Part shown: positions 6,979-61,785 of the stretch, piece after piece
Layout of the letters: every line of letters starts with the position of its first letter
Position numbering within the stretch: the first letter of the stretch is position 1
Assembly: GCA_029783825.1 (NCBI GenBank)
Contig: JAREIK010017110.1
Coordinates: forward strand, 1 to 64,000
Origin: Sapria himalayana
Lineage: Eukaryota; Streptophyta; Magnoliopsida; Malpighiales; Rafflesiaceae
DNA: 64,000 nucleotides
Reading direction: 5' to 3'
Position numbers and translations under genes: made by a program
The notes under the pieces: generated by a model
What the model was told of the DNA's origin: nothing
The model's database searches: none
The model's input: the letters and a program-made list of their open reading frames with translations, nothing else

Positions 6979-8120
6979 ATTATTCTTCTTATTTTTCTTA
7001 TTCTTATTGTTCTTCTTTCTTCGTAGTCTCATTTTTCATCTTTTTCTTCTTGTTCTTCATATTCTTCTTGTTCTTCTTATTCTTCTTGTTCTTCTTATTC
7101 TTTTTTTCTTTTTTTTCTTTTTTTCTTATTAATCTTCTGATTCACCTTATTCTTCTTATTCTTTTTATTCTTCTAATTCTTCTAAATCTTTTTTTCTACT
7201 TATTCTTCTTATTCTTCTTATTCATATTATTCTTCTTATTCTTCTTATTATTTTTATTCTTCTTATTCTACTTATTCGACTTCTTCTTATTTGAATTCTT
7301 CTTATTATTCTTCCTATTCTTCTTTTTCTTCTTATTCTTTTTAATCTTTTAATTCATCTTATTCTTTTTAATCTTTTAATTCATCTTATTCTTTTTAATC
7401 TTTATATTCTTCTTATTCTTCTTAATTTTTTATTCTACTTATTCTTTTTATTTTTTTATTATACCTATTCTTGTTAATTTTTTTTATTTTTCTTATTCTT
7501 ATTATTTTTATTTTTTATTCTTCTTATTCATATTATTCTTCTTATTCTTTTTATTCATCTTAATAATCATATTCTTCTTATTCTTATTTTTAGTATTATT
7601 CTTCTTATTTTCTTATTTTTAGTATTATTCTTCTTATTCTTCTATTCTTCTTATTCTTCTTATTCTTCTTATTCTTTATTTTTATTATTCTTCTAATACA
7701 TCTTATTCTTCATATTCTTCTTATTTTTTATAATCTTTTTAATCATCTTAATCTGATTCTTCTTCTTTTCTTCTTATTTACCTTATTCTTCTTATACTTC
7801 TTACTTTTATTTTTCTACTTTTTCTTCATATTCTTCATATTCTTATTATTGTTTTTTTATTGTTATTCTTCTTATTCATCTAATTCTTCTTATTTTTGTT
7901 ATTTTTAATATTATACTTATTCTTATTATTATTCTTATTCTTCTTATTTCTCTTATTCTTCTAATTCTTGTTATTGTTATTATTCTTCTTATTTTTTTAT
8001 TCTTCTTATTCCACTTATTCTTCTTATTTTTTTATTTTTCTAATTATTCTTTTTCATCTAATTCTTATTATTCTTGAATTACTTCATATACTTCTTATTA
8101 TTCTATTTCTTCTTCTTTTT
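6979..8120. repeat. Satellite array A1 (TTATTCTTC 9-mer)
   Basis: The array is built from TTATTCTTC and variants such as TTATTATTC, TTCATATTC and TTATTTTTC. On the left it begins directly after the CACTA-like terminus. On the right it joins the 3' end of L1a. The + strand is almost free of G. Because all changes are substitutions or multiples of three, it gives long meaningless open frames rich in Phe, Leu, Ile, Ser and Tyr. Confidence 0.95.
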
Positions 8121-8297
8121 TATAAAATTCATTTATTATTGATAACCCTCCCTTTTGGCGAAGGAAAACCATTTTTACAACCTATGGCTACCCATAGCCC
8201 TCTTACACCCATCTTAAGTTTTAAATTTACTCACTAACATATTAAATTATAAATGTTTTGCTCAATAAAACATTTTTTGCCTATATTATTTGATCTT

Positions 8298-8372
8298 CGG
8301 CCCGTACTTCCCGTTTTGCTATTTTCGGCCCGTCTTTCCCGTTTTGTTATTTTCGGGTCATCTTCTCGGCCC
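8298..8372. repeat. 28-bp tandem repeat in the L1a 3' UTR
   Basis: Units starting CGGCCCGT at 8298 and 8326, with a partial unit at 8354, repeat with a 28-bp period. The repeat is clearly more GC-rich than its surroundings. Confidence 0.85.
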
Positions 8373-8659
8373 ACCTTCTCATTTAATAATTCTTGTAATC
8401 TTCGGACCTCTATCTCTCGTCTTCCCCATGTCTCGGGCTCTTCTCTTCACGTTATTTCTAAAAATTTCCAGCCGTCCTCCTTTTTTTATATACTCATGAA
8501 CCTGTAAAATCCAAAGAGAAAAATGAACATGCCTGCAAGATAACTTGTCACCCTATTACCCTTGTCCCTTGTTAAACTTATACATAATTTCTTCGTTCCC
8601 TCCCATTCTCTATGGCATTCCTATACTGCTTTACTATTCTTTATAAGTTATTACGTGAT

Positions 8660-8790
8660 AACTTAATCATTGAACCGCAAAGCCAGTAGTCACTACCCAG
8701 TGGAAGATGAATTATCTATGAACTTAAGCATTGAACCGCAAAGACAGTTTATGGTATATGAACTTATCAAGACGAATTATCTATAAACTT
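8660..8790. repeat. Approximately 61-65-bp direct duplication in the L1a 3' UTR
   Basis: CATTGAACCGCAAAG occurs at 8668 and 8729, and GAATTATCTAT at 8709 and 8774. The order is conserved, so this is a tandem duplication with small indels. Confidence 0.8.
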
Positions 8791-9290
8791 CATTATTTAA
8801 CTCCACAGGATTATCGGATTAAAAACAGAAGTCTCCTTCTTAACATCTTCATCCTGCAAGGAAAATCCAAATACATATTTATACATATGCACCATTCTGC
8901 CGAAACTGCTTTGCAAAATTAACACATACATAGCTCTAACCTATTTGCTTCTTTTTTAGATTCGTTATTCTAAATTATGTTCTAAGTTTTATTTTTATTT
9001 CTAAAGATGGCTCAACCTCCACCCTTCCTATTCCTTAAACTTCTATTAATATAACACAAAACTTGTGTGAAACTTTAGCATTTGATAATACAAAGATAAC
9101 CCAGTAATTTTATAACACCTTGGTAAGGCTGATGTTTCACTTCAGTAGGGCGTGATTACCTGCAAGAAGAAAAAATTCCAACACTTACCTGTTGCCTTCT
9201 ATTTTCTTTTTGGACTTGCTTTGCTAGGACAGAAATTCCCTGCAATGTCGGATTCCCGCACGAAAATTCCAACAGGAGATTAAGTCTTTA

Positions 9291-11708
9291 TCATATGTTC
9301 GTAGGCTGTTTATTTGTTCTAATATAAGGAAATCCCATTTTATCTAAACATGATATTCCCTTTAGTTTATTTGGCATGGATTCCACGTTATATTCTATAT
9401 CTCCTCTAGTGGAGCCTATTCTAGATAGGCTATCCGCTAGATTATTAGCTTCTCTATATATATGTGTTATTGAGGCCTTCAGTTCATCCAAAAGGCTAAG
9501 AATTACTTCTAAATCATCTTCATATCTCCATAATATTTTCTTGTTAATTACTGTTTCGACTAATAATTTCGAGTCTACCTGAACTTCTATATTTTTAAAA
9601 TTTAGCTGCTTACATATCTCTAACCCTGATTTCAATGCTTTAATTTCTGATTCTAGGGCCGAGGAGGCTCTACTAGATCTGGTGAAAGCTCACTTTACTG
9701 TCCCTGTATGATCTCTTATTACCCGCCTCCTCCTGCTATTCCAGTGTCCCTGCTAAAACTACCATCCGTATTAAGTGAAAATTTACCAACCGATGGAGTG
9801 TTCCAATGTATACATTTAGCGAATTGCTATTTTATAACTTTATAAGTGAGGTCCCATGTTTTCTCAAGCTTCTTTTCTTGTTTCATTTCCTCTATTTTTA
9901 TAGGTTTCATTATTGATATATTACTTATATCCTTTCTAATATCTTTTATAATTTCTGTTAAATTCATCCTTTTATTTTCAAATTTACTTTTGTTTCGAGA
10001 TTTCCATATGCACCAAATAATTAGATGCGGCAATTTCTAATTAAGCCATTTTCTGATGGGGCTTTTCATGTTTTCACTTTCCCATTTTTTAACTTTATCC
10101 ATTAATCCATCATCTTTATTACATATTCTTTTTTCCCCTTCCATCTCTCTCCATATTTCCACTGCAATTGGCCCATTGGAAAATAAATGATCGGTTGTTT
10201 CAACTGCTTGTGACCAGCATTCACTTCTTGATGCCATTTTTATCCCTTTTTTTGTACATTCTTATCTACCGGTATAGCATTCATTAGAGCCTTCCATGTG
10301 AAGGAACGCATTTTTTGCAGGACGTTTTCTTGCCATACCCATTTGAATAAAGTTTGAGCCGGTTTTTTCTTTCTGACCAGATCTTTTGCCGACTTGAGAG
10401 AGAATTTTTCTTGTGGTGTTAAAGTCCATTTCCAGCCACTCTTCTTTAGTGTGGAGTGTGAGTCTACTATCTCTTTTTGTTTTTCCATTGTCTTCCAGCT
10501 GTTCGAAGCTTTCTTAGGGCTCTTATTCTTATTATCTAAATATTTTGCCCGCATGTATTCAGCCCAGAGATTATCACTTTCTTTAAGTCTCCACCATCCT
10601 TTGCAATCCCAGGCAGCTGCCGAGTCCTGAAGGCTCATTAGACCTAATCCTGCTTCCTCTTTCGGATAACAGATGCTTTTCTAGTCCTTCCAGTGTAATT
10701 TATTTCTACCTTCTTTTTTACCCCATAAGAAGTTAGCCAGTTCTGATTCGAGTTTTTTAATAAATTTTTTAGGGGGATGTATGACTGATAAAATATGTGT
10801 TAGTGTGCTTTGTAAAACATGTGAGAGTAGTGTTCCTCCCCCCAAATCCCAGGAGCTCTTCTTTCCATCCTGCTATTTTCTTTCTTAGCTTATCTTGAAG
10901 GTAAGTTAGATATTCTTCCTTCAACCTCCCCTCATATATCGGAAACCTAGGTACATTAATGCCCCTTTAATTTATGAGAAGCCTGTGATATTTTTGATTT
11001 TATCTACTAACTTTAATTTTGCATTTTTAGCAAGCATAAACTGACATTTACTTTTATTTACCATTTGACCTGTCTCTTTTCCAAATATTTGAAGAAGATC
11101 CATAAGATTCATTAATGATTTTGTACTAGCATTTTTAAAAATTATAAGGTCATCCGTGTAGGCTAAACAGCCTATTCTGGGTGTATTCCTTGGTTGTCTG
11201 AATGACATTATTTTACCTTCGGATATTCTCTTATTCAAGTTTCGAATTAATAATTCTAAGTAGATATCAAAAAGAAGGGGGGATAACGGATCCCCTTGCC
11301 TTATACTTCTATTTGGTTTAAATTCTCACTTATCTTTCCATTTACAAGGACTCTTACCCAAGTACTTGAAATGGATCTATATATTAGATCTATGGTTAGC
11401 TCAGAGAAACCGAACCTTCTCAGCACAAAACAAAGGGTATCCCATTCTACTCTATCGAAGGCTTTCGATAGATCTAGCTTAACCACTAAATTTTTTCCTC
11501 TTGATTTACCTCCTATTTCTTTCATCATTTCTGATGCAAGTTTTATATTTTCAATCATTAATCTATTTTTAACAAACCCATTTGTTCCTGAGATATTATT
11601 GAAGGTAAAATTAAGCTTAGTCTATTTTGTAATATTTTTGCTAAAATTTTATAAATAGCATTGCATAAACTTATAGGTCTGTAATCCTCGTATTTTGTGG
11701 TGATTCTT
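9291..11708 (-). pseudogene. L1a ORF2 remnant: reverse transcriptase - zf-RVT - RNase H
   Basis: In an active LINE, ORF2 nicks the target and copies the RNA by target-primed reverse transcription. At the 5' side, 11301-11700 encodes the finger/palm region with DYRPISL, FVKNRL and the catalytic motif A (KLDLSKAFDRVEW). At 10972-11238 the second catalytic motif reads AYTDDLIIF, so YADD has become YTDD but both Asp remain. At 9827-10638 the zf-RVT region shows FSLKSAKDLVR, KMRSFTWKAL and IIWCIWKSRN. At 9291-9785 the RNase H has NTDGSF, ESEIKAL, QVDSKLLV and HIYREANNLADSLS, so its catalytic acids look intact. At least four frame changes or stops break the reading frame. The endonuclease half is missing because of the 5' truncation. 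Confidence 0.92.
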
Positions 11709-14219
11709 TTTCTTCTTATTTCTTCTTATTATTCTTATTCTTCTTATCTTCTTATTCTTCAAATTCTTGTAATTATTCACATTCTTTTTATTCTTTAAAT
11801 TTTTATTATTTTTCTTATACTTCTTTTTATTCTTATTCATTTTATTCAACTTATTCTTCTAATTTTTATTTTTATTCTTATTCTTTTAATTTTTCTTATT
11901 CTTCATGTTCTTTTTACTATAATATTTCATCTTATTCCTTTTATTCTTCTTATTCTTGATATTCTTGATATTCTTCTAATTCTTCTTATTTTTATTTTTT
12001 TTCTTATTTTTCGTATTCTTTTTATTCTACTTATTTTTAATATTTTTTTATTTATCTTAATTTTTTTTTGTTATTTTGCTTCTTATTCTTCTTATTCTTT
12101 TTATTATTCTTATTTTTTAATTTTTCTTATTCTTCTTATTCTTTTTATTATTCTTTTTTTTTATTTTTGTTTGTCTTCTTATTGTTTATATTCTTATTTT
12201 TCTTTTTATTCTTCTTATTCTTCATATTAATCTTATTCATCTTATTTTTCTTATTATTCTTATTTTTCTTATTATTCTTATTAATCTTATTTTCTTATTC
12301 TTCTTATTTTCTCATTCTTATCATCCTTCTCAATCTTCTTATTCTTCTTATTCTTATTATTTTTCTTATTCTTCTTATTCTTCTTATTTTTTATTCTTTT
12401 TATTCTTCTTATTTTTCTTATTCTTATTTTTCTTCTTATTCTTCTTATTCTTCTTATTATTCTTGTTTTTTTATTCATCTTATTCAACTTATTCTTCTTA
12501 TTCTTCTTATTCATATTTTTTTCTTTATCTTATTATTCTTTTCATTCTTCTTTTTCTTATTATTCTTCATTTTCTTGTTATTCTTCATTTTCTTCATATT
12601 ATTCTTATTATTGTTATTTTTCTTATTATTTTTATTATTGTTATTTTTTTTCTTATTTTTTTTATTATACTTCTTATTCAAATTATTCTTATTCTTCTTA
12701 TTATTTTTTTTATTTTCTTATTCTTCTTATTCAAATTAATCTTCCTATTCTTATTATTCTTCTTATTCTTCTTATTCTTCTTATTATTCTTATTCTTCTT
12801 TTTATTCTTATTCTTTTTATTCTTTATATTCTTTTATTCTTCTTGTTCTTCTTATTCAACTTATTATTCTTATTCTTTTTATTCATTGTATTTATCATAT
12901 TTTTCTTATTCTTTTTTTTTTAATATTCTTCTTATTCAATTTATATTCATATTCTTTTAATTGTTTTTATTCATATTATTCATCTTATGCTAATTATTTT
13001 CTTATTCTTTTTATTCTTTTTATTCTTTTTATTCTTCTTATTTATTATTTTTCTTATTCTTCTTATTCTTCTTATTCTTCTTATTCTTTTTATTCTTCTT
13101 ATTCTACTTAATCTTCTTATTTTTCTAATTCTTTATATTATTCTTATTATTCTTATTATTCTTATTATTCTTATTGTTCTTATTCTTCTTATTCTTTGTA
13201 TTCTTCTTATTCTTTTTTTCTTATTTTTCTTCTTTTTCATTTCTTTCTTATTATTCTTTTTATTCTTTTTATACTTATTATTGTTATTAATCTTCTTAAT
13301 CTTTTTTTTATTCTTATTCTCATTATTATACTTATTCATCTTATTATTTTTATTATTCTTTTTCTTCTTATTTTTCTTATTCTTCTTATTCTTATTCTTC
13401 TTATTATTTTTATTATTCTACTTTATTATTATTATTCTTATTATTCTTCTTATTCTTATTATTCTTTTTATGCTTATTATTCTTCTTATTCTTTTCATCC
13501 TTCTTATTCTTCTTATTCTTTTATTCTTATTATTCTTATTATACTTCCTATTATTCTTATTTTTTTTATTCTTCTTATTCTTCTTATTCTTCTCTTTCTT
13601 CTTATTCTTCTTTATCTTATTATTCTTCTTATTCTTATTATTCTTATCATTTTTATTATTCTTCTTATTCTTATGATTTTTATTTTCTTATTCTTCTTAT
13701 TTTTGTTATTCTTCTTATTCTTCTTTTTCTTCTTATTTTTTTATTCTTCATCTTCTTCTTATTCTTAATATTCTTCTTATTTTTATAATTCTTCTTAATG
13801 TTTATATTCATTTAATTTTTTTAATTATTTTAATCTTTCTTATTTTTCTTATTTTCTAATTCTTATAATTCTTCTTATTTTTCATATTCTTCTAATTCTT
13901 CTTTTCTAATTCTTTTAATTCTTCTTCTTCTTTTTAATCTTTTTATTATTCTTATTCTTATTATTCTTATTATTCTTCTTATTCTTCTTATTCTTCGTAT
14001 TCTTATTATTCTTATTATTATTCTTCTTCTCATTATACTTCATTTTCCTTTTATTCTTGTAAATCTTGTTATTCTTATTATTCTACTAATTCTTTAAAAT
14101 TTTCTTATTCTTCATATTATTCTTATTATTCTTATTCTTCTTATTATTCTTACTGTTCTTATTCTTCTTATTTTTTATTCTTCTTATTTTTTTTTCTTCT
14201 TATTTTTCTTTTTCTTATT
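11709..14219. repeat. Satellite array A2 (TTATTCTTC 9-mer)
   Basis: This 2.5-kb array has the same composition as A1. It lies between the truncated 5' side of L1a and the 3' end of L1b. Runs of perfect TTATTCTTC units occur near 13060-13110. Variant TTATTATTC runs occur near 13140-13170 and 13930-13980. Confidence 0.95.
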
Positions 14220-14311
14220 TAAAAATTTGTTTTATTATTAACTCTCTCTCTTTTGGCGGACGAATATCATTTAATACAAGCTAAATCTACCCTTTTCCCT
14301 TTTACACGTAT

Positions 14312-14455
14312 CTAAAATAAAAAATAAAAAAATAAAAATAAAAATAAAAATAAAAATAAAAATAAAAATAAAATAAAAATAAAAAAAATAAAAAATAAAA
14401 ATAAAAATAAAATAAAAATAAAAATAAAAATAAAATAAAAATAAAAAATAAAAAT

Positions 14456-14491
<36 letters not shown>

Positions 14492-14497
14492 AAAAAA
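14312..14497. repeat. (AAAAAT)n low-complexity tract in the L1b 3' UTR
   Basis: This is a 185-bp run of AAAAAT-type units on the + strand, or T-rich on the element's sense strand. The A/T polarity is opposite to a poly(A) tail, so it is an internal expansion and not the element terminus. The other copies do not have it. Confidence 0.92.
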
Positions 14498-14738
14498 CAC
14501 ATTCCAACTTGTTTAGCCTTATGATTCTGCAAGAGACTTTATCTATATAAAACATGCACCACAAGAATAGAACTAACATCCTAGGCTTTACCCCCCATTT
14601 ACTCACCATTAATTCCTTGTATTCTCCATTATAAATTCTTACATGCTTTGAGAGAATGCCAGTGAGATCCTTCAATAACATTATATAATAGAAAGACCTA
14701 CATCTACCCTTATTCTACCCTTTTACTTATCCCTTATC

Positions 14739-17700
14739 CTAACTAATTCTACAAATTCTGACATAAGGACCGGCTATTTCATCTAGCCTTGCTAACCCTC
14801 TAAATCTATCCAGAATATTGCATCTATCAAAATCTTTTTCCTCTTTATGCAATCCTTCCTTTGCTAGCCTATCAGCTAGTGCATTGTCTCCCTATAAACA
14901 TGAGTTATAGTCGCTTTCAATTCTTTTATATATTCTTTATAAGTTCTATCTTCTCCTCATATCTCCACATCTCTAAATTTTTGGAAGCGAGACCAACTAG
15001 TAGATTTGAATCCACTTGAATTACGATCTCTTTTAGATTAAGTCCTCTGCAAATTTGCAGACCTCTCCCAAGTGTCTTTATCTCTGCATGTAAAGTTGAG
15101 TTTGCCTTACCCGCCATTGTAAATTCTTTAATGATCTTTCCCTGCGAATCACTTATCACTCCCCCTCCTCCCATTGCCCTCATATCTTTAGAGAAGCTTC
15201 CATCAGTGTTGAGAGCAAGCTTTTCTATTGGTGGCTTCTCCCATATTACCTCTTTATACCCTCCCTTTGTTCTATATTATATGTTAGTCCTCATGCTCCT
15301 TTGAGCTCTTCTGAAACTCTCGTAACTTGTGCTATAATAGGGTTTTTACTTGATAAAATGGGGATCTCCCTTTTTATATCCTTCAGTATGTCTTGAGAGT
15401 TCATTTGGACATTCTCAAATCTACTTCTATTTCTGGCTTTCCATATACACCAGACTACTACTAGTGGGATGTTTTCTCTGAGCAACATTTGAGCTTTATA
15501 ATTAGACTTGCCTTTAATCCAATGTGACAGCTTATCCTTTAGCTTTCCACCTTGCTGCTACTATAGTCCAGTACCCAGCTGGCTCCACACCTCTCTAGCT
15601 ATAGTCCCATTTGAAAATAGGTGATCTAAGCTTTCCCTTTCAGAAAAGCAGCATTCACACCTTGAAGCTGTTGCTATTCAGTTCTTCTGAATATTAATGT
15701 CTACGGGTGTAACTTATAAGAGTGCTTTCCATAGAAAGATTTTCATCTTCTGTAGAGTATCACTCTTCCATAACCATTTAAATACTGGCTGCAACTCACG
15801 TTTATTCCTTATTAATTCTTTTACAAATTTTATAGTGAACTTGCCCGACACGTTTAGCATCCATTTCAAGCCACTATTCAATTGAGAATGCACATCCACT
15901 AATTCTTTATGTTTTAACATTGTTTTCCAGGTTTTGGAGGCTTCTTCTCATGCCTGTAAGATCCCTTTTCCCATCCATATTTAGCTGGCATAAAACATGC
16001 CCAAAGACTTTCATTCTCTTTCAACTTCCACCAGCCTTTACAAGCCCATGCACCAACTATATCCGTGAGACTAGTAAATCCCAGTCCCACCTCCTCCTTA
16101 GGATGACATAAAGTATTTCATCTTAGCCAGTGCAATTTAGGTTTTCCCTCCCTCTTACCCCATAAGAAGTTGCCCATTTCTTTCTCTAATCTCTTTAACA
16201 CCTTTTTTAGAGAGTGAATAACTATTAGAATGTGTGCCAGTGAACCTTGTAACACGTGCTATCAACATGGCTCTGCCTCCCAAAATTAATAATTCTTCTT
16301 TCCACCCCACTATCTTTCCTCTCATTTTCTCTGTTAGGAAACCTAAATATTCTTTTTTTAACCTGCCTTCAAATATTGGGCATCCCAGGTACATCAAAGC
16401 ACCTTTCTTTTGAGTAAAGCTTGTGATTTCTTTCACTCTTTGAGACACTTTTACCGTGGCTTTATTTGCTAACATAAACCAACATTTCTTCTTATTCAAA
16501 GTCTTCACCATATTTTCTTTTAATGTCTTTTGGCTGCCTGGATATGTGAAACATCATCAGCATATGTAAAGATGATGACATCATCAGCATATGTGAAACA
16601 TCCCACTAGGGGGATCTCTTTTGGATGCCTGGATGTTAAAATAGTATTATTTCTCATTCTCTCTTCAAATTCAAGAGAAAAAGCACCAATAAATGTTAAA
16701 GAGTTAGGGGAATAATGGATCTCTTTGCCTCAAACCTCTGACTAACTTGAATTCCTCCCCTTTTTGGCCATTTATTATAATTCTGACCCATACGCTCGAA
16801 ATGTATATACACACTAGGTCTATCCAAAATTCTGAAAATCTATTCTCTTCATGACATAACATAGAATGACTCATTCCACCCTATCAAATGCTTTTGACAA
16901 GTCTAGCTTGAGTACTACGTTAAGTCCTCTAACTTTAGCTCTAATGTCTCTCATTAATTCAAAAGCTAAACTTATGTTTTCCATCATTAATCTATTTTTT
17001 ACAAAGCTTGTTTGTTCCTGTGAGATAATCCTAGAAAAAATATCACTTAATCTGATTTGCAATAGCTTAGCTAAAATCATGTAAACTGCATTGCATAAGC
17101 TAATTGGCTGGTAGTCTTCTACCCCCTGAGGGTTCTTTATCTTCAGAATAAAAATGATAAAAGAACTAGCCCATGATTTGGTTATATATGCCCCTGCAAA
17201 TATCCAAGAGATGGCTTGAATTAAATCCATTTTAATAATATGGCAGTATACTTGAAAGAATGCATTATTCCTTCCATTCAGTCCTGCAGCACTCTCCTTG
17301 TTCATGCTGAAAACTACTCTTTTAACCTCCTCATCTTCTGGAGGTTCCTCTAGCTTCGCATTCTCTTCTAGTGATATTCATTTTTCCAATGCATGCATTA
17401 AGGTCTTTCCTTCCTGGCTCCCTATCTCACATAAATATCTCTTAACATATTCATTTATTTGAAATTTTATATCCTCCTCCTTTTCCATCCATTCTCCTTT
17501 TGAATTTTTAATGCCTTTAATTCTATTTTTTTGAGTTTTAATTTTTGTCATAGTGTGAAAAATTTTGTGTTATGATCACCCTCCTTCAGCCACTTCACTT
17601 TCGCTCTTTGCTTTCATAAGATTTACACCATGTGAAGATTAAGTTTTAGCTCAGCCTCTACTCTACTTAATTCTCATCTATTCTCTTCATTTTGGTCTCT

Positions 17701-18618
17701 TTCATATGTTGCTTCATAGCCTACCACTATTTTTTGCCTATGTAATCTTCTTATTAATGTTTCCAAAAACTTCTTTGTTCCATTTGCTCAGAGTGTCTTC
17801 AACCTAGGCATCTTGATTGCCAAAATATGTAATGGATTTTCTGATGCCGGTTCTGATCATGATCTTTCCACTATCTTATCAAAATCTGAGTGAGAACTCC
17901 ACTTGTTCTGATATTTAAATTATTTTGCTAGCGTCTGGCTTGAGTTAAATGGTAAAAGCATTGGACTATGATCTGAACAAGTTCTGTTTAATATTCGTAG
18001 GTTCATGCCCCCATACAAAGCCAGCCATTTCGTGTTATACAAGACTCTACCTAGTCTCACCCAAATAGCACCTCTCTTCTTCCAGTTATTGCACCAAGTA
18101 TACTCTTAACCCAAGAAATCCACTTCCATAAGATTTGAATTTGAAATCGCCTCATTAAACTAATTTATTGCTTCTGCATCTGGGGATCTCCCTACTAGCT
18201 TTTCATTGGAGTATATGATCACATTAAAATCACCATCGATGACCCATGGGAGATCCTTTGATGATATTTCCACCATGTCCCACCATAAAGACCTCCTCCC
18301 TTCTTTAGTATTTTTTTGCATATACTACCAAAATATGCGCTTCTGTATTAGCAAGTTTAAAGTGGATTAGCTATTCTGTGTGTTTTAGAACAGCTAAATC
18401 ATTCTTTGTGGCCCATATGACCCATATTTTCCCATTATAATTAGCCCTATCATTTTCAAAACCCATTAGCTTTCTATAATTATCAAGTTGATTAATGTCT
18501 ACCATAGGTTCCGATATAACCACTATTTTTATTTTATGCATTCTGATTAATTTTTTAATTCTTTTAAGGAGGGTTTGTTAGCCACTCCCCTAATATTCTA
18601 ATATATGCAACTATTCAT
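14739..18618 (-). pseudogene. L1b ORF2: endonuclease - reverse transcriptase - zf-RVT - RNase H
   Basis: The start ATG at 18616-18618 lies inside the end of ORF1. The endonuclease (about 17930-18618) opens with a decayed NIRGVAN segment, has an SEPMV motif and ends with RTCSDHSPMLL, the conserved SDH of APE-type nucleases. The reverse transcriptase (about 16100-17400) has DYQPISLCNAVY, SFVKNRLMMENI and KLDLSKAFDRVEW. Its YADD motif is duplicated in frame (16544-16608). The zf-RVT (about 15290-16050) has WCIWKARNRSRFEN. The RNase H has NTDGSFSKDM, HAEIKTL and IQVDSNLLV, with a frameshift in the last helix. It ends in PYVRICRIS and a stop at 14739-14741. Several stops and frameshifts inactivate it. 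Confidence 0.93.
16527..16634. repeat. Tandem duplication at the YADD motif of L1b
   Basis: On the minus strand the catalytic box reads FTYADDVIIF followed by TYADDV, a 27-bp (9-codon) in-frame repeat. A longer partial duplication of about 89 bp is also visible, since TCTTTTGG(C/A)TGCCTGGAT occurs at 16527 and near 16615. About 20 residues normally present between YADD and the NKKKC segment are missing, so a deletion accompanied the duplication. Confidence 0.8.
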
Positions 18619-20132: not shown

Positions 20133-20240
20133 TCTAAGCTTGGGAGAAGCTTGTTCTACAAAATGTTGGAGCTTTCTCTCTCTAAAAAATAGGTCTTTAT
20201 CTCTCTAGAAGTTGAGAGCATTTTTCAAAGAAAAGAAGCA
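20133..20240 (-). promoter_or_regulatory. 5' UTR / putative internal promoter region of L1b
   Basis: This segment lies between the satellite array and the ORF1 start. It contains TGCTCTCAACTTCTAGA (complement at 20204-20220), which is identical in L1g at 61815-61831. LINE promoters lie in the 5' UTR, but no specific promoter element is identified here. Confidence 0.5.
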
Positions 20241-26582: not shown

Positions 26583-26591
26583 TAAAGGTCT

Positions 26592-45856: not shown

Positions 45857-45864
45857 AAGGTTTG

Positions 45865-45881: not shown

Positions 45882-46196
45882 GCCCTCGATTTTGGCGGAG
45901 GAATATCATTTTTTAATCTAATGATTTACTCTATTCCCCTTTTACATACTTGACAAAATAAAACAATGTACAAAATAGCTTTACAATCAGCTTTCTTAAA
46001 AAATAAAGAATCTTTGAGATTTTCATTTGTATAATTTTTATGTTGTGTATCCTGCCCTAATTTGCTTTTACTTCTTTGTCTGATAAGCCTACATGCTTGC
46101 TCCCTTTTATAGCAACAACTTTAACCATTGTCTTTAAGAATAGAAATTCACAGCATAGCAGCATAGCAACCTCATTTCACAGCTATAGTCTTAGAA

Positions 46197-46830: not shown

Positions 46831-47048
46831 TGAAAGATACAAATTGTTTTAATTATTATTTAAAGCTCATTATCTGCTTAGGCAGTGATAGTTAGTCTCT
46901 ACCCAAATTTTGCTTTTCCTGCCATATGCCATTTTCTATATACTTTCATCTTAGCCCATACCTGTAATTCTTAAAAACAAAATAGAGCAAGGTATATTTT
47001 TATGATTTCTCCATAGGACCTAGGAGATCAAGAATTTCTATTCGGCTA

Positions 47049-51300: not shown

Positions 51301-51700
51301 TCCCCCTGAAATATAACACATATATCATCTGGTGTGTGGATAATAAATCATTTATGATCACAATTAATAATGATCCAATGTGATGTAACCAGTCCATGCC
51401 GATAATTACTTCAAAATCTGAACTTATCCATGACTCAAAGATTTTTCCATGAATATAATCCTTGAGATTTCTAACTCACAATCTTGATATATCTGACAAA
51501 TTTTCACCTTAGACCCCAAAGGAGAAGTCACATGCAATAACTTGTCCAAATTTTTAACTCTTAATCCCAATTCTTCCACACATGATGTAAAAATAAATGA
51601 ATATGATACATCAGAATCAAATAGAACTCTTGCCCATAAATGAAAAAGCAAGAAAGTACATTGTACTACTAACTGATCTATCCTTTCCATATGTGGTGTA
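48345..51700 (-). pseudogene. Gypsy pol: protease - RT - RNase H - integrase
   Basis: The protease (51424-51690) has VLFDSDVSYSFI, where the expected DSG is now DSD. The reverse transcriptase (about 50300-51060) shows [39 protein letters not shown] and FVDDIFDYS. The RNase H (about 49750-50250) shows [26 protein letters not shown] and SLKYLYT. The integrase (about 48600-49500) shows KAEHQRPTELLHPL, DQLTKPTHFL, SDKDPRFMAYFW and QPQTDGQSERTIQ, then the GDHVFLKV block and a WPFEIVEKV segment. The last residues match the chromodomain-like end (VRLVKVIW, then TWERE). Frequent stops and frameshifts show long decay. Lineage is judged from motif style and is less certain than the superfamily. Confidence 0.88.
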
Positions 51701-52465
51701 ATTGCATAGACACACCCTTGGTCCTTAAAGTCCCAGACTGTGAGCTCTCAACTCGACGTCGACCCATGCCTTGGCCTCCCTGATATGTTTGTGAAGTAAG
51801 AGATATTTGTTGAATACCCTGAGATTGCACCCAATTCCTTGGATCTATACTAAAAAAGGAAGGAATAAATCGTGTTCGCATATTTCCCACGAATGTCTAG
51901 GATTGTGATGTTCTTATAATCCTGGAATTCCATAATCATGGAGTAGCACATAATTATTCCCAAAACATGCCAACTTGGTGAATTTAGCCTTGTAGTCTAA
52001 CACTGATATATTTCATTGTCTAAGTTCAGGGAATTCTCGGGCCTTGGCATATCTAGATGAAGTCGTCCATAACTAGTTTTTTGAATTCTTCCTATGTCAT
52101 TACCTCTATATTCTTCAAGGCATTGATCCAATCCCACCAAATTTGTGACTCACCTTCTAGTTGAAATGCTGCTAGCGGATCTTGATAAAATTGCAAGTGA
52201 TTTCCATTGCATCCAAGATTTTATCAACTTGTCGAAACAAATAATCTGCTGCCATTGGGTCTCCTCCCCCCATAAATGTTGGAGGATGATGTGCTAGGAA
52301 TTTTTGAAGGTTACATGATCCTTCTTGACCTCCAGTTGTACTAGTTTGTGCAACCCTTGCAACAGCAACACCCACAGCCGCTATTAGAGCCTACTGATCA
52401 AAGAAGGCTAGGGATTGATCCTCATTTCGTGGACATCCCCAGCATCCTTATTCTCTACTTGTCAT
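51701..52465 (-). pseudogene. Gypsy gag remnant
   Basis: The likely ATG at 52463-52465 is followed within a few codons by a stop. The N-terminal gag segment FLAHHPPTFMGGGDPMAADY and KILDAMEI is clear at 52172-52330, and a Trp-rich capsid-like segment follows near 51980-52140. The CCHC knuckle normally found before protease was not seen. Confidence 0.8.
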
Positions 52466-52696
52466 CTTTCTATAAGTCAAATAATAATATAAGAATCACA
52501 TTCATTCCCTATTATTAGTGCACATGCCAACTAATAATAGTCTTTTCATTTTGAAATATCATTTCATTTTCAGAATCACTAAGGTTATATGTTCTTTACC
52601 CTAGTGTTATTCTCTTTACCTGAGTTTTCGAATATCTAAATGTTTCCTATCACATTATGAAACTTGTACCAATTTCTGAGTTATAGGTATTCGTAT

Positions 52697-52716
52697 ACCT
52701 AATCTTGATACTAAAT
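52697..52716 (-). promoter_or_regulatory. Primer-binding site next to the gypsy 5' LTR
   Basis: On the minus strand the LTR ends ...GTGTCACA and is followed by ATTTAGTATCAAGATTAGGT. This is a mutated form of the TGGTATCAGAGC site complementary to initiator Met tRNA that plant chromoviruses use. Confidence 0.65.
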
Positions 52717-53162
52717 TGTGACACATCATTTCCCAGGGGTGTGCAATTCATTCCATCATACAATACAATGTGTAATAAAATAAAAATTTCTCAAATATAC
52801 AATACATTTTTTTTCATTTTACATTTTATTTGCATAGTGGAAGAAACAAAACACCCATCATATTATTTAAGCCATAAACCAGCTTTCCTTCACATGTGTG
52901 ATCCGTATGTGAATCTGTCATCTATCCTGGACTTGTACCTGAAAGGGGTCTCCACAATGGAGTGAGCAAAGCTCAGTAGGGTAAACTCTTTCAGAGTTAC
53001 TACCTACCTAACTGCACATAAAATGTCATGAATAATTATCAACACCCATTCAAGTACAATGTTTATATGATGCAATTATGGATGAAATGTTACTAGCCCA
53101 TATTCCTAAGATCCTCAACTCCTCACATATGCCGAAGCCAACTGTGAATATTATATATCTGG

Positions 53163-53196
<34 letters not shown>

Positions 53197-54289
53197 GTAT
53201 ATAGTATATATATCTATAGAAATATTTATTTTTTTGGAATTATTCCGAAAACTATGGACCTCCTCCGAAAAATCATATATACATTTATCCGAATAAAATA
53301 TGATTTTCTTGGATTTAATCCAAGAAATAAGCAACTGCCATAATTCTGTGTGGACTTGTCCCAATTCAAGTTTCAGGAATCTATAATAACCATATACCAA
53401 ATAAAATCACACGAAACTCAGTCTAGACGTTGTCCCAATTCGAGTTGGCTAAATACCATCCATACACACACACACACACACATCTGTAACCAAACCATGT
53501 ATATAAAATGTTCCCGTGCATATGAAATGCAATTATATCATTTCCAATTTAATCCATATTTCAGGACACCATTTTTAACAATCCAAATCCAATTCGTCCT
53601 ATACTAATTTTTATTAAATGAATACCGAAACATTTCACCAATTAATTATTTCCAATTAAAATTTCTAACAATTCGAATGAAATATAAACCATGATCATTT
53701 CTTGCCATTAAATAGAAAGGAATTCTGATAAGATAAAACCTCTACCTTTCGGAATATTTCACAGAAACTTTATAAATTTGATATCAATGTGAAGATCTTG
53801 TCGTGTAGAGTAACTTTAATTCTTGAATTATTTCATTCTGATTCCAGAAAATCCATTAGGTTTAAAAGAAAATTCACTGATATTTTTTTCTGTACTATCT
53901 TTCCCTCCAGTGCTGAACATTTTTTTTCAGCCTTTCTCTCGTTTTCTAGATTCCTGACATTTTTCTTTTTTTTAATAATTATTATCATTAATTAATAAAA
54001 AAAATTATTTTATATTTCTTTTAGGTTGATATCTAGACAGCCAACAGACTACCAGCGCAGGCACATCCACGTTCAGATGACGTGGCGTGGTCTTTCGGGT
54101 GAGCAAATTTTTTTTTTCAAAATATTCTAATAATTATTTATACAATAAAAATATAACAAATTCTGATTTTCTCATAATTTAACGAAATTTGACACTTTAG
54201 CTATATTTTCTAAGACGAATTCAATAATGACATCTATTTTATTATTATGGCTCTAAAATATTCAGGTTATTTTCTCTTATTGCAAAATT
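52717..54289 (-). repeat. 5' LTR of the gypsy element (outer edge uncertain)
   Basis: It starts next to the primer-binding site at TGTGACACATC (+ strand). It contains an S/G-rich patch near 52950-52990 and short TA (53164-53184) and CA (53465-53482) microsatellites. No second LTR is available for comparison, so the outer boundary near 54289 is taken from the start of the satellite array. Confidence 0.6.
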
Positions 54290-55147
54290 ATCTTATTGTT
54301 CTTATTCTTCTTATTCTTCTTCTTTTTTTATATTACTCTTATTATTTCTTATATTTCTTATTCTTATTATTCTTTTATTCTACCTATTCTTCAAAATCTT
54401 TTATTCTTCTTATTTTCTTATTCTTGTTATTCTTTTATTCTTGATATTCTTCTTATTTTTTATTCTTCTTATTTTTATTCTTATTATTCTTCTTATTCTT
54501 CTTAATTTTTTTTTTTCATATACTTCTAATTCTTCTAATTCTTGATATTCTTCTTATTTTTCTTATTCTTCTTATTTTCTTATTCTTATTATTCTTCTTA
54601 TTCTTCTTAATTTTTTATTTTTCATATACTTCTAATTCTTCTAATTCTTTTAATTTTTCTAATTCTTCTAATTCTTCTAATTCATCTTATCCTACTTTTT
54701 TCTTCTTTATTCTTTTTATTTTTCTTATTCATCTTATTGTTCTTATTCTTCTTAGACTTCTCTTATTATCTTTCTTAATCTTTTTATTCTTCTTTTTCTT
54801 TTTTTCTATCTTAATTTCTTATTCTTCATATTATTCTTTTTCTTCATATTCTTCTATTTCTATTTATTCTTATTATTCTTTTTATTCTATTTAATCTTCT
54901 TATTCTTTTTATTCTTCTTATTCTCCTTATTCTTATTATTCTTCTTATTTTTATTATTCTTCTTTTTTTATTCATCCTTTTCTTATTATTCTTATTATTC
55001 TTATTATTCTTCATATTATTCTCATTCTTCATTTTCTTCTAATTATTTTTATTATTTTTATTTATATTATTCTTCTTATATTTCTTCTTCTTCTTTTTCT
55101 TCTCATTCTTCTAAGTCTTTTTATTCTTTTTATTCTTCTTCTTTTTT
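54290..55147. repeat. Satellite array A6 (TTATTCTTC 9-mer)
   Basis: This is the shortest array, about 0.86 kb between the gypsy LTR and the 3' end of L1f. It includes a near-duplicate segment (ATACTTCTAATTCTTCTAATTCTT near 54520 and 54615). Confidence 0.93.
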
Positions 55148-55157
55148 GGAAATGTTG

Positions 55158-55171
55158 TTTTATTAATAAAA
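55158..55171 (-). other. 3'-terminal palindrome of L1f
   Basis: TTTTATTAATAAAA, identical to L1d, lies about 10 bp from the array. Confidence 0.55.
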
Positions 55172-56092
55172 AAGTCCTCTCTTTTGGTGGTGGAATATCA
55201 TTTTTACAATCTATAACTACCCTTTTCCCCTTTTACACCCTTGAATAAAATAAATGAAACAATACACATTATGCTTGAAGTGAATATTCTTGTCCTATCT
55301 CTAAGTGCACTACTTCACTTTGAATCTGTACATTAGACTACTTTACTTGAAGTATATCTTGGCCTATATATCTTTTATTTCTCTATCCTTATGCTTTTTT
55401 GTCCCTTGCAGAATGTTTTAGTGCTTCATAGCTTCTCTGCCTTATGTCCCTACACTTTAAGCAGCCATAACAGAATATATGATGACTCTAAAGCATCCCT
55501 TGTCCCTTTTTACACCATTGAAAAAGAAATAAGCAAAGCATGCATTTGACAGCCCTAACTGATCTTCTTATTATAGCTTTATTTATCTTCCTGAATTTAA
55601 TATAATCTAACAGCCTCTTTGCTGTTCTATTCATTTTTGCCTAACCTCTTTGCCTCATGTATGCATTTGACTGTATCCCCTGCACCACAAGCCCACAAAC
55701 CTAATAACATATAAAATAGGTATATATTTAAATTGCCTCCTCACCGATAGTGTTACTATATTTTGGCAGCATCATTCTCTACCTTATATTTCTTTTGTAG
55801 TTCCTACACTTTAAGCATACAAGATACAAGTACAGTTTCATACACTATTTAATATTGCAGGCCAACTGCATAATTAGAACTTCACATAGTTTTAACTTAT
55901 TTAAAATCTAAATATCTACTTAGGCAGTGAAATTAAGTCACTACCCATTTTTACTTTCCTACCATAGGTCATTTCCATATCCTTTCATGTTAAGCTACAC
56001 TTATAATCCTAAAAACCAAAGAAGTGCAATATATTTTCATAATATCCTCACTGGATCGGAAATACCAAAGATTTTTTTTCCAGCTTCTGCTT

Positions 56093-59000
56093 TTGAATTC
56101 TAATATATAGGTATTTTTATTTATCTAATATGATTATGCCTTTATATTTCTATGGTATATCAGCCCCCTCAAACTCTTGTAACCCTTTCTTCAAGCCTTC
56201 TTTAGCTAAGTTGTCTGCTAAAACATTAGCTTCCATATATATATATATGCATAACTTCCCCTTTTATGTAAGTAAAAAGACTATTGATTGACTCTATCTA
56301 TTCATGATACTGCCACATTTCTATCTTATTCATGACCAGATTCACTAGTATACTAGAATCTACCTGTACTCGTATGTTAATATAAGAGTTTTCTTTGCAT
56401 ATTTAAGGCCTTTATCTAAGGCTAAAATTTTTACAAGCAAGACTGAGGATGCTTTTTATTTCATTGTAAATGCTTTTAGAATGCTACCCTGCTCATTTCT
56501 TATCACACCTCCTCCCCCTGCCATTTTCATATCTATTAAAACTACCATCTATGTTTAGGGCAAGCCTTCCCCGTGGAGATTTTTTCCAACACACTATTCT
56601 AACCTCATGAATTTTTTTCTTTAATTGTATGTAATCTTCATATCCTTTTTTTTCATCATCCATTTCCATGTTTCTAAGTTTTAATGGGAATCCTACTAAT
56701 ATCCATGAACAATCTTTTTATTTTCTTCTATTATATGATTAGCATTCATTTTAATATTTTCAAACCTACTTCTATTCATGGCTTTCCATAGATTCCACAT
56801 TGTAATGTGCATGATGTAATTCCTCAGCCAGTTACATACTTTATTCTTTGTGTGACTTATCCTCCATCTCATTAATCTTTCCTTGATATCTTCTAGCTTA
56901 TTGCTTACTTGTGCATCTCTCCCTAGATATTCCCAGATTTCCACAACTATCTTTCTTGTTAAAAATAGCTGATTTGTGCTTTCTATGCTAGTGTAACAAC
57001 ATTCACATCTGGAAGTTAATTTAATCTTTTTCAACTGAATATTCGAGTCCACTATAATAACTTTGATAAGAGCTTCCACATAAATACATTAATTTTTTGA
57101 AGGATCTTTTTCACCCAGGCTCCCTTAAAAACTTATTGACTAATTTTTTCTTTTCTTACAAATATTTTTGTGCTTTTAAGCGTGAACCTCCCCTATGGAT
57201 GTAGAGTCCATCTCCATTCATTATTGATTAGGCGTGAATTACTTTCAACTAATTCTTTTTATTTAAGCATCATGTTCCAACTTCTAGATGCTTTTTTAAC
57301 ATTCTTACATGTTTTATTTCCTGACCCATATCTAGCTTTCATATAACTAGCCCACAGGCTATCATTCTACTTGAGCCTTCACCAGTTCTTACATGCCTAG
57401 GCCTTGGCTATATCATTTAATTTATTCAAGCCTAGACCCACTTCCTCCTTTAAACAGCATATATCTTCCCATTTTTTCCAATGTAGCTTATTTTTTCCTG
57501 ATTCTTTACCCCATAGAAAGTTAGTCATTTCCTTTTCTAAGTTATTCAAGATCTTCTTTGGTAGCTGTAAGGACATTAATATGTGTGCTATAGTTCCTTG
57601 TAGGACATGTTTACCTAATTTGATCTGTCCACCATACTTAACATATTCTCCTTCCATCCCACTATTTTACCTCTTAATTTATTCATTAAAAATGTTAGAT
57701 ATTCTTCTTTCAGTCTACCCTCGTATATAGGACAACCCAAGTACATTAATGCCTCTTTACTCTGCTCAAAGCCTATAATTCTTTTCTCTTTGAATTGTCC
57801 TTTCAGGTGTTTTCCATGAAACCACAAATTGACATTTATTTTTATTAAGTTGTTGTCCGTTTCTACCACTACTGTGTCAAATAGTTTCATCATATTCTTC
57901 AGTGATTTGCTCTCAACATTTGTAAAAACAATTAAAACATCCAAATAGGCTAGGAAGCTTACATTCAGAGTATATCTAGGTTGTTTAAGGCTAGTAATAT
58001 TGCCCTCCATTTTTTCTTTTAAACTTGCTATTAAGAATTATATATATATATATAATAATATAATAATGGAGATAAAGGATCCCCCTGTCTAAGTCCACTA
58101 ACTGGCTTAAATTCACCACATGCCTCCCCATTAATTAGAATTTTAACCCATGCGATAGAGATGCATATATACATTAAATCTATATAATTCCAAAAATCTC
58201 ATTTTCCTCATCATGTAACATAAAATGCCTCATTCCACTCTGTCAAATACTTTAGACAAATGTAATTTCATAACCACATTATGGCCCCTAACTTTGACCA
58301 CTATTTATTTTATCAATTCTACAGTAAAATTAATGTTTTCCATCATTAATCTATTTTTAATGAATCCTACTTGTTCTATCGAAATAATGAAAAGAATTAC
58401 CCTATTTAGTCTATTCTGGAGGACTTTTGTTAAAAATTTATACACCGAATTATATATACTACTAGGTCTATAATCTTCACTTTGTTGCGGATTATCTTTC
58501 TTGGGTATCAGTACAATATATGAGCTGACCCATGATTTTATGATTTTTGCTCATGCAAAAACCCAAGCAATTGTGGCAGTCAGCTCTTTATTTATTATAT
58601 TATAGGTTTGCTAATAGAAACCATATTCCATCAGTTTGGACCCACTACACTGTCTTATTTCAACTAAAGACTATATATTTTATCTTCTCCTCTCTAGGGC
58701 ACTCTTCTAGTAGTTTATTTTGTTCTTCAGTTACTCTTTTGTCTATTTTTCGATTTAAGGAGTCATCCCTTTGGTGGCAGTGACCATATCGATGTCTTTT
58801 AAAATAATCTTACAAAACATTTTTAAGGTCTCCTTCCTCATCTATCCACTTGCCAATATCATTTTTGATACCATTTATTTCTTTCTTTGATTTCTTAATT
58901 TCGTAACTACTTTGAAAAACTTAGTGTTTCTATCCTTTTCCTTAAGCCACTTTATTTTGACTCTGTATTTCTAAAAAATTTCTTCCATATTCAGCAATAA

Positions 59001-59250
59001 TTTTAATTCCACATTTGCTTTATTTAATTTAATTCTACAAGGTTCATCCTGTTTATTTCATGCTCTATTTCTAATTTACTCACTTTAGATTTGGTATCCT
59101 GAATATTCTTGTTTATATTCTCAAATCTTTCTCTATTCCACCTACTAAATTCAAATATTAATCTACGTAATTTTATAGCTAGAACATGGATGGGATTCCT
59201 ATTTGTTGGCTCTTGCCATGAGTTTATTACTATTTCATCAAACTCTTTAT
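56093..59250 (-). pseudogene. L1f ORF2 remnant: reverse transcriptase - zf-RVT - RNase H
   Basis: The reverse transcriptase (about 57400-58860) has lost both catalytic motifs: motif A reads MKLHLSKVFD (first Asp to His) and motif C reads AYLDV instead of YADD. A TA expansion lies near 58036-58062. The thumb region keeps ALMYLGCPIYEGRLKEEYL and NFLWGKESGKNKLHWKKW. The zf-RVT (56696-57079) is open over 127 codons with SRCECCYTSIES and LWKAMNRSRFEN. The RNase H (56093-56580) keeps NIDGSFNR but is frameshifted. The usual stop after YIRIQK is changed to a Gln codon, so reading continues a little further. Confidence 0.9.
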
Positions 59251-61785
59251 ATTCTTCTTATTCTTCTTATTCTTCTTATTCTTCGTATTCTCTTATTCTT
59301 ATTATTCTTCTTATTCTTCGTATTCTTCTTATTCTTTTATTCTTCTTATTCTTCTTTTTTTTTTATTCTTCTTATTCTTCTTATTGTTTTTTTCTTGTTA
59401 TTATTGTTATTCTTATTATTCTTTTTATTCTTCTTATTCTTCTAATTTTTTTATTCTTAATATTCTTTTAATTTTTTTTATTCATCTTATTCATCTTATT
59501 CTTTTATTCATCTTATTCTTCAAATTCTACATATTTTTATTATTTTTCTAAATTTATTATTATTATTCTTCATATTCTTCATATTCTTATTATTCTTCAT
59601 ATTCTTCTTATTCTTATTATTCTTCTTATTTTTATTATTCTTCTTATTATTCTTATAATTCTTATTATTCTTATTCTTTTATTCTTCTTATTCTTCTTAT
59701 TCTTCTATTATTCTTATTCTTCTTATTCTTCTTATTATTCTTATTCTTCTTATTATTCTTATGTTTATTTTTCTTTTTATCCTACTTATCCTTCATATCC
59801 TTCTTATCCATTTTAATCTTCTTATCCTTCTAATCATTCTTATCCTTCTTTTCCTTCTTAACCTTGTTATCCTTCTAATCCTTCTTATCCTTCTTTTCCT
59901 TCTTAACCTTCTTATCCTTCTAATCCTTCTTATCCTTCTTAACCTTCTTATCCTTTCTTTCTTTCTATCTTTTTATTCCTTATGTTACATCTTATCATTT
60001 TTATCATTTTTATTCTTCTTAATCTTTTTATTCTCTTTATTCTATTTATTCCTCGTATTTATATTATTCTTTTTATTCTTCTTAAATTTATTATACTTCT
60101 TATTATTCTATACTTCATTTTCTTTTATTATATTTTTATTCTTTTTCTTATTATTATTCTTTTTTTTTATTATTCTTCATATTCTACATATTATACATAT
60201 TCTTTTTATTCTCTTATTCTTTTATTCTCTTATCCTTCTTATCCTTCATATCCTTCTTATTATTCCTATCCTTCTTATCTATCTTATATTTCTTATATGT
60301 GGTATTCTTCTTATCCTTCTTATCCTTTGTTATCCTTCTTATCCTTCTTATACTACTTTCCTTCTTATCTTTCTTATTTTTCTTATTCTAGTTATTCTTT
60401 GTATACTTCTTATTCTTCTTATTCTTCATATTCTACTACTTCTTTTTATTCTTCTTGTTATTTTTATTTTTATTTTTATTTTTATTTTTCTTCTTATTTT
60501 ACTTAGAATTTATATTTTTTTTATTCTTATTCTTATTATTCTTATTAGTATTAATATTCTTTTTTTTTGTGTCCTTTACTTCTTATTTTTCTTATTATTA
60601 TTATTATTATTATTATTCTTAAAATTATTCTAGTTATGTTTAATATTCTTTTCTATTCTAGTACTTTTCTTATTATTTTATTCTTATTATTCTTCTTATT
60701 CCTCTTATTTTTCTTATTCTTCATATTGTTCTTATTCTACTTATTATTTTTAATATACTTATTCTTCTTATTCTTCTTATTCTTTTTATTCTTTTTATTC
60801 TTATATTCATCATATTCTTTTTAATCTTTTATTCTTCTTATTCATCTTGTTCTTTTTATTCATCATATTTTTCTTATTCTTCTTATTCTTATTATTCTTC
60901 TTATTCATATTATTCTTCTTATCCTTCTTATTCATCTTATTCTAATTATACTTCTAATCTTCTTATCCTTCTTATCCTACTTATCCTTGTTATCCTTATT
61001 ATTCTTCTTATCTATTTATCCTTCTTATTCTACTTATCCTTCTTATCCTTGTTATTATTCTTTTCTTTTTATTCTTCTTATTCCTCTAATTTTACTTATT
61101 CTTCTTAATTTTTTTATTTTTTATACATCTTATTCTACTATACTTCTTAATCTTTTTATTATACATATTCTTCTTATTCTTCTAATTCTTCTTATTTTTC
61201 TTATTCTTCTTAATCTACATATTATTCATTTTCTTTATATCATTCTTATTCTTCTTATTCTTTTATTCTTCTTAATCTTTTTATTCCTGTTATTTTTTTT
61301 CATTTTTATTATTTCTTCTATTCTAACTATTCTTTTTATTCTTATTATTATTTTTATTCTCATTTTTCTTCTGATTTTTCATATTCTTCTTATTCTTCTT
61401 ATTTTTCTTATGCATATTATTCTATTATTTTATTATTCTTTTTATTCTTGGTATTTTTCATATTTTTCATATCTTCTTATTATTCATATATTCTCATTCT
61501 TTTTATTTTTATTATTCTTATTATTCTTATTATTCATTTTATTACTTTTCTTCTTCTTACTCTATTTATTATTCTAATTCTTATTATTATTCTTAGTCAT
61601 CTTATTCATCATTTTATTATTATTCTACATATTCTTTTTATTCTTTGTATTCTTCTTACTTATTTTGTATACTTATGAATCTACTTATTATTCATATTCT
61701 ATTTCTTATACTTATTCTTCTTATTCTTCTTGTACTTATTATTCTTTTTATTCTTATTATTCTTATTTTAATTTTTGTTATTATG
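59251..61785. repeat. Satellite array A7 with TTATCC variant domain
   Basis: This 2.5-kb array lies between the truncated 5' side of L1f and the 5' UTR of L1g. Two stretches (about 59770-60000 and 60230-60380, with scattered units to 61070) are dominated by TTATCCTTC units, in which the usual TTC is TCC. The remainder is the standard 9-mer. Confidence 0.94.
59840..59956. repeat. 45-bp higher-order repeat within A7
   Basis: Five 9-mers in the order TTATCCTTC, TTTTCCTTC, TTAACCTTG/C, TTATCCTTC, TAATCCTTC repeat at 59840 and 59885. A third copy begins at 59930 but lacks the second 9-mer. The period is exactly 45 bp by count. Confidence 0.9.

Follow-up and report, generated by a model that had tools for sequence, protein, structure and literature searches.

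The stretch analyzed here, referred to as the window, comprises 64,000 nucleotides of the plastid-less holoparasite Sapria himalayana (positions 1 to 64,000 of contig JAREIK010017110.1, assembly GCA_029783825.1). In it, a degenerate TTATTCTTC array of about 20 kb hosts six minus-strand long interspersed nuclear elements (LINEs) of the L1 type (L1a to L1f), arranged head-to-tail and in a single orientation. These plant LINEs probably use target-primed reverse transcription to enter pre-existing tandem arrays with a purine and a pyrimidine strand, through the choice made by their endonuclease. Arrays lie on both sides of the elements, target-site duplications and a strand bias were observed, and several classes of target are used. 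That the array is a pre-existing target, and not a tail made by the LINE, is supported because near-identical siblings differ in their flanks, the two sides of an element mostly match and private array variants occur within the duplications. The LINEs are specific for a class of arrays and not for one 9-mer.

The assembly surveyed holds 2,057.7 Mb in 18,497 contigs; the accessible text of the S. himalayana genome paper gives 18,718 scaffolds, a GC content of 27.47%, 12.81% LINEs and 691.1 Mb of repeats (33.53%, implying about 2.06 Gb), with an assembly size of 1.92 Gb in Table 1 (PMC10246380). For a DYW-type PPR protein encoded in this genome, the best match gave 75% over 54% of the query, and matches spanning the whole query were found in Erythroxylum (58%) and Hevea (57%). 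A lamiid origin, to which two weak ORF1 hits had pointed, was abandoned following this comparison. A 22-base motif of the LINE 3' end was found in 6,062 exact copies genome-wide (control, 0). The table of 3' flanks covers 70 of 100 listed motif places, 30 extracted automatically and 40 fetched; the 30 places outside it lie in contigs C121 (22), C100 (4), C111 (2) and C124 (2), and 11 of them were fetched as pairs. Flanks were classified by a fixed rule (array coverage of at least 0.45 within 250 bp). Purine/pyrimidine arrays made up 45 of the 70 flanks (GATA, 30; GAAGAATAA, 10; GAA, 3; GAATAAGGA, 2), and the remainder were TATAACTA/TATAACTATATA arrays (2) or other DNA (23). The coverage rule scored L009 as other, yet it is a CTAT array by Tandem Repeats Finder (TRF); L157 is GAA-like. 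Removal of six segmental duplicates (L014, L018, L134, L138, L139 and L144) left 39 purine arrays in 64 flanks, with a strand ratio of 36:3.

The background consisted of 38 pieces chosen regardless of content, 20 taken at round coordinates from contigs that had appeared in hit lists and 18 of a further 20 sought in arbitrary contigs, two being too short. Five of these pieces were GATA or 9-mer arrays, five were TATAACTA arrays and 28 were other DNA, so that purine arrays are enriched at the LINEs (45/70 versus 5/38; Fisher p = 2.4e-7). Genome-wide, the estimate is about 257 Mb for GATA arrays (12.5%) and 44–113 Mb for 9-mer arrays (2–5.5%), together roughly 15–18% of the genome. These shares were obtained by dividing whole-genome exact 16-mer and 27-mer counts by the density in sampled arrays, and are only rough because purity differs among arrays; the "controls" in the pattern searches with the 9-mer and with GATA were the same repeats reversed, and hence not controls.

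A young subfamily was defined by 367 exact copies of one 33-base terminus. Twelve of its 20 sampled 3' flanks were purine arrays (GATA, 9; 9-mer, 2; GAA, 1), two were TATAACTA arrays and six were other DNA. A further 17 flanks, on the 5' side and scored by eye, gave 11 purine arrays in the LINE sense (including a short GAA stretch that lies behind another LINE), two TATAACTA-like and four of neither kind. As one explanation, the initial annotation had proposed the 9-mer satellite as the target; the same family was also found in GATA, GAA and GAATAAGGA arrays and in non-array DNA. The annotation had also reasoned that ordinary poly(A) tails and unrelated flanks at most copies elsewhere in the genome, with arrays at this locus only, would point to a local duplication. 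Short poly(A) tails were indeed found (an A-run of at least 5 close to the 3' end in 84 of the 90 sampled genomic LINE flanks), but most sampled flanks were arrays. As a separate observation, a third array class, a TATAACTATATA-like 12-mer (loci L060, L061, L065, L068, L112 and L115), was seen in 5/38 background pieces, 2/70 LINE flanks and 2/20 young LINE flanks.

The comparison of siblings and of the two sides of each element bears on target versus tail. L150 (in non-array DNA), L165 (GAA) and L129 (GATA) are 95–97% identical over about 6.1–6.2 kb, and L009, in a TCTA array, is 95.4% identical over 5.2 kb to L015, whose 3' flank is another LINE with no array. By TRF at the settings used, no array of at least 60–80 bp was found at L015, L034 or L150; L034 has a 62-bp AT repeat. 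Array class and strand agreed in 14 of the 25 elements classified on both sides. Among these 14, L088, L092 and L094 have nearly equal flanks and look like copies of one insertion. The two sides of L009 and L157 also agree, below the class cut-off; L090/L091 lie between GAA and GAATAAGGA, and the combination of GATA on one side with GAA on the other was found in none of the 25. L024, for which an AAG array was found at the 3' side but no array upstream, was excluded from the 25-element table. Paired flank scores over 24 elements exceeded those of all 20,000 permutations, mostly through agreeing array type. Target-site duplications with private array variants were found at L140 (17 bp), L129 (15 bp), L017 (at most 19 bp) and L096/L097 (about 18 bp); that of L150 is 13 bp long and lies in non-array DNA. 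In the window, the flanks of L1d share AAAGAAGAATAAGAARAATTATAA, a candidate target-site duplication that was not significant against controls. The duplications picked by eye for L1b and L1d were rejected, since, of 150 array pieces drawn at random, 18 to 110 scored equally high. A choice of array fixed by lineage was likewise rejected, with only weak clustering (17 changes for GATA versus 20.8 when shuffled, 15 of 500 shuffles being as low).

The purine strand is the LINE sense strand in 53 of the 57 array insertions (41:4 in the 70-flank set and 12:0 in the young subfamily). GATA flanks contributed 26 purine-sense and four opposite cases, and the GAAGAATAA, GAA and GAATAAGGA flanks were purine-sense in 15/15. 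The nick, taken as the start of the duplication, reads TATCT|A in L140 and L129, TTCTT|A in L096 and TTTT|C in L150, although the exact base is uncertain because of the A-run. Sites of the type TCTA plus TCTTA are dense on the pyrimidine strand of GATA arrays (99.7 per kb, versus 0.7 on the other strand), and the two strands of the window 9-mer arrays have 58 versus 0.3 per kb; non-array background has about 7 per strand and TATAACTA arrays about 2–3. Canonical TTTTAA sites were not enriched in arrays. In the background pieces about half of the TCT(T)A sites fall in GATA, GAA or 9-mer arrays, and 64% of the observed insertions do so (interval 52–75%). At GATA arrays the junction phase was G in 26 cases, T in 4 and C in 2. 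At non-array insertions the first base past the poly(A) was G in 12/24, against an expected 15% (p = 8e-5). This count was 14/27 before the array-like L009, L132 and L157 were dropped, and two of the 29 "other" flanks, having no A-run of 5, were outside it. The excess of G is a sign, independent of the arrays, of CT-ended priming.

From these data we infer a nick motif with a causal role, a priming step and the persistence of the inserted elements. The endonuclease would nick the pyrimidine strand, for instance of (TCTA)n or (TTCTTATTC)n, at TCT(T)|A or at a CT-ended site of similar kind. The T-rich end released in this way would then pair with the poly(A) tail of the LINE RNA, and completion of the insertion would duplicate 13–19 bp of the array. 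A preference for TCT(T)|A, which is dense on one array strand, would explain the strand bias and some of the enrichment; the bias may be strengthened by mobile elements accumulating or persisting within arrays. Because the 9-mer offers the nick site on one strand only, successive insertions would align head to tail and produce the mosaic of the window.

The initial annotation had left two explanations standing, target choice and satellite-like tails made by the elements themselves, and only target choice withstood the survey. According to the second, reverse transcription or slippage of the tail yields a repeat that expands and is later invaded by relatives. All six 3' ends in the window run on into an array, and short GAA spacers separate some head-to-tail LINEs, as such tails would predict. 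However, near-identical elements differ at their 3' side (GATA, GAA or no array), the 5' side mostly shows the same array and strand (the repeat being neither confined to the 3' side nor fixed by lineage), the duplications hold array variants and a poly(A) run stands between LINE and array; an origin of the arrays from the LINEs is therefore hardly credible. That a single LINE-plus-array unit was duplicated locally in tandem to build the window is also very unlikely. Such a duplication would agree with the single-direction order and with the segmental duplicates of LINE–array loci elsewhere (L013/L014, L017/L018 and the mirror-image spacing in C121). Yet the window copies are only 64–84% identical to each other where alignable, and thus do not represent a single recently duplicated unit; their truncation points differ, and L1a is nearer to L027, a LINE outside the window (81% over 1.6 kb), than to its neighbors in the window.

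Passive accumulation is a more serious alternative, although we consider it unlikely. All mobile elements would insert or survive in array-rich heterochromatin, LINEs no more so than others, and an ordinary AT-rich L1 nick preference would set the direction. For comparison, 20 ends of CACTA transposons, which are unrelated to LINEs, were sampled out of 5,122 (the loci behind the GATA-array share and this observation are L049, L051, L057, L075 and L194–L213). Eight of the 20 lie in GATA arrays (40%, against 5/38 background pieces in purine arrays), two in TATAACTA arrays, ten elsewhere and none in GAA or 9-mer arrays. The arrays, moreover, form a large share of the genome, and the TATAACTA arrays (5/38 of the background) hold 2/20 young LINE flanks and are not clearly avoided. 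Against passive accumulation, GAA and 9-mer arrays are used by LINEs (18/90) and not by CACTA (0/20; p = 0.04), TATAACTA arrays account for only 2/70 in the full flank set (p = 0.09), TTTTAA sites are no richer in arrays and the G-first pattern at non-array sites differs from a TTTT|AA pattern. Since CACTA ends also lie in arrays, the arrays gather mobile elements generally, and the case for a part specific to LINEs depends on strand, junction and use of the GAA class. By eye, seven of the eight CACTA ends in GATA arrays have GATA on the strand reading into the element; some are perhaps duplicates.

A number of results weigh against targeting by the LINE endonuclease. For GATA alone, LINEs (39/90) and the CACTA ends (8/20) do not differ (p = 1), and the GATA part therefore need not stem from the LINE endonuclease; over all purine arrays the comparison gives p = 0.07. 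The nick motif comes from three array insertions, and the site of L150 departs from it; under the narrower form [CT]TCT(T)A, the share of sites that lie in arrays falls from 50% to only about 26%. The junction phase at 9-mer arrays is mixed, and no avoidance of TATAACTA arrays is seen in young LINEs. Among the 25 elements with two classified sides, five (L100, L102, L104, L106 and L108, with their partners) have short GAA spacers, neighboring LINEs or unlike sides. Target-site duplications in the window were undemonstrable, and the paired scores of five window elements were matched in 66 of 120 permutations. The opposite orientation was found for L1g, L009, L031, L133/L134 (duplicates) and L154, L009, in its CTAT array, being a fifth opposite case beside the four GATA ones in the 70-flank set.

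New copies also land right at the tails of older copies. In some head-to-tail series, only a poly(A) and GAA-rich spacer of about 60–150 bp separates the 3' motif of a LINE from the 5' motif of its successor. Close-set loci of this kind were seen in contig C124 (about 1246860–1246975), in contig C121 (about 113057, 153872, 193821 and 247666) and at L100–L107 and L117. In C121, the places of the 3' motif between 152001 and 308976 have spacings of 6210, 6286, 6554, 6359 and 1850 in the + half, mirrored in the − half by 6165, 6316, 6564, 6411 and 1853, which suggests a large inverted duplication.

The LINE–array mosaic described in the initial annotation is real, and the seven arrays and the LINE boundaries were located where it had placed them. 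All seven arrays read TTATTCTTC on the + strand, and the 9-mer (GAAGAATAA/TTATTCTTC) fits 84–90% of the array bases after alignment, similarly in each. As had been claimed, every minus-strand LINE 3' end joins an array (6/6), through a conserved terminus with AATAAA, about 12 nt and a short A-run. The companion claim for 5' ends held for L1b, L1c and L1d, apparently full-length, and for the truncated L1a and L1f. The element starting near 61786 (L1g) is on the + strand, and the array abutting its 5' end is therefore reversed with respect to the element. The 5' side of L1e has no array.

From left to right, the degenerate array at the 3' flank of L1a (6980..8114, + strand, as for all the arrays) is followed by the 5'-truncated L1a (8115..11703, − strand, as for L1b to L1f), pieces of which match RVT_1, zf-RVT and RVT_3, and by a second array (11703..14221). 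L1b (14217..20245) has pieces of DUF4283, RVT_1 and RVT_3; its 3' region holds a T-rich (TTTTTA)n-like stretch at 14314–14497, about 90 bp short of the L1b end. The longest array (20246..26582, 6.3 kb) separates it from L1c (26583..32950, zf-RVT piece), after which come an array (32951..37516), L1d (37517..43780, RVT_1 piece) and another array (43780..45849). L1e (45850..48344) is the 3' part of a LINE, its similarity to L1c, L1d and L1f starting at 48344. Its 5' side adjoins a decayed long terminal repeat (LTR) retrotransposon (48345..54290, − strand) with a piece of RVP_2 aspartyl protease, for which no LTR pair was found. The shortest array (54291..55143, 0.85 kb) leads to the 5'-truncated L1f (55141..59249, RVT_1 piece just below the cut-off), which is 84% identical to L1d over 3.3 kb. 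The last array (59250..61764) separates L1f from L1g (61765..64000, + strand), the 3' end of which lies beyond the window. In divergent pairs the last 120 or so bases are more similar than the bodies (L1b versus L1c, L1d and L1f, 74–78% at the end and mostly 64–72% elsewhere). At the left edge, CCGTCGCTAAA-type 50-bp repeats (6400–6979) finish in a CACTA-like terminal repeat, TTTTCTTGTAGCA (6960..6979, − strand), exactly where the array begins. This edge at 6979/6980 is a 13-mer match with two mismatches, one of seven such in the window and the only one at an array edge; no second end of the element was recognised within the window.

The elements are plant L1 LINEs of ordinary structure, with DUF4283, reverse transcriptase, zf-RVT and RNase H-like domains, poly(A) and target-site duplications. 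In Pfam searches, DUF4283 (open reading frame 1) was matched with E-values of 2.4e-21 in L1g and 6.1e-15 in L1b, and RVT_1, zf-RVT and the RNase H-like RVT_3 scored above the cut-off in pieces of L1a to L1d. The endonuclease looks to be of the apurinic/apyrimidinic (AP) type, the Exo_endo_phos match in L1g (E-value 3.5e-5, 24.1 bits) falling just under the cut-off of 24.5. A conserved 3' hairpin is not claimed, as RNAalifold gave 13 pairs with none changed on both sides. A review by Ohshima reports that one L1 group of maize and sorghum has conserved 3' ends that include a hairpin (PMC3747384); the conserved 3' end of the Sapria LINEs is similar in kind.

Kibi and Koshi are microsatellite-specific LINEs of the Tx1 clade, and the target of TRAS and SART is one telomeric pentamer. 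Like the Sapria LINEs, TRAS and SART build LINE–array mosaics by inserting in a single orientation into short tandem repeats; the Sapria arrays (TTATTCTTC, GATA, GAA and kin), in contrast, are none of them telomeric. Among animal LINEs, Togen targets (TG)n and some HERO families are also microsatellite-specific, and most reported target-specific families fall in the early-branched, Tx1 and R1 groups (PMC4640811). The Sapria LINEs, with several array kinds among 70 flanks, do not have a single strict repeat target of the Togen, Kibi or Koshi type. Simple tandem repeat DNA is the target in all of these, but Togen, HERO, Kibi and Koshi have a restriction-like endonuclease or belong to the Tx1 clade and use one target each, whereas the Sapria LINEs have an AP-type-looking endonuclease, use a class of arrays and place about one third of their insertions elsewhere. 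SaTar Mutator-like elements (MULEs) of guayule and rice accumulate side by side in microsatellite DNA (PMC5907723); they too are plant mobile elements, but DNA transposons and not LINEs.

The closest precedent is that of the L1-CS LINEs in the satellite CUS-TR24 of Cuscuta. In Cuscuta europaea, L1-CS elements prefer CUS-TR24 as an insertion target and 91% of them lie near it, with preferred sites TTCTA and TTTCAA and duplications of about 13–16 bp (PMC8091179). A plant L1 family with such an association, of which the initial annotation knew none, has thus been described. In both cases plant L1-type LINEs lie within tandem arrays, as heterogeneous copies with a prevailing orientation; the L1-CS sites resemble the TCT(T)|A proposed for Sapria, and the duplications are similar in size. 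Cuscuta, which belongs to a plant order other than that of Sapria (Malpighiales), differs in having one satellite with two mapped hotspots, whereas the Sapria lineage uses several degenerate simple arrays (GATA, GAA and 9-mers). No description of L1 targeting of GATA, GAA or 9-mer arrays in Sapria was found in the literature outside subscription papers, the Sapria genome paper being covered by passages only.

Green plants have more DYW-deaminase proteins than the 37 matches, some partial, counted in this 2-Gb genome, a number in line with a plastid-less parasite. It is a tentative proposal that in this holoparasite the L1 endonuclease preference matches a class of strand-asymmetric simple arrays, and that these arrays offer a large landing site, let the LINEs grow and get fragmented in turn. 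For a plant L1 family, the work distinguishes target from tail, and it adds a second plant case to that of Cuscuta, both hosts being parasitic plants. TCT(T)|A is a testable site, and the 367-copy young subfamily provides the material for testing it. The results suggest that a nick preference alone can make whole classes of simple-repeat arrays a habitat for LINEs.

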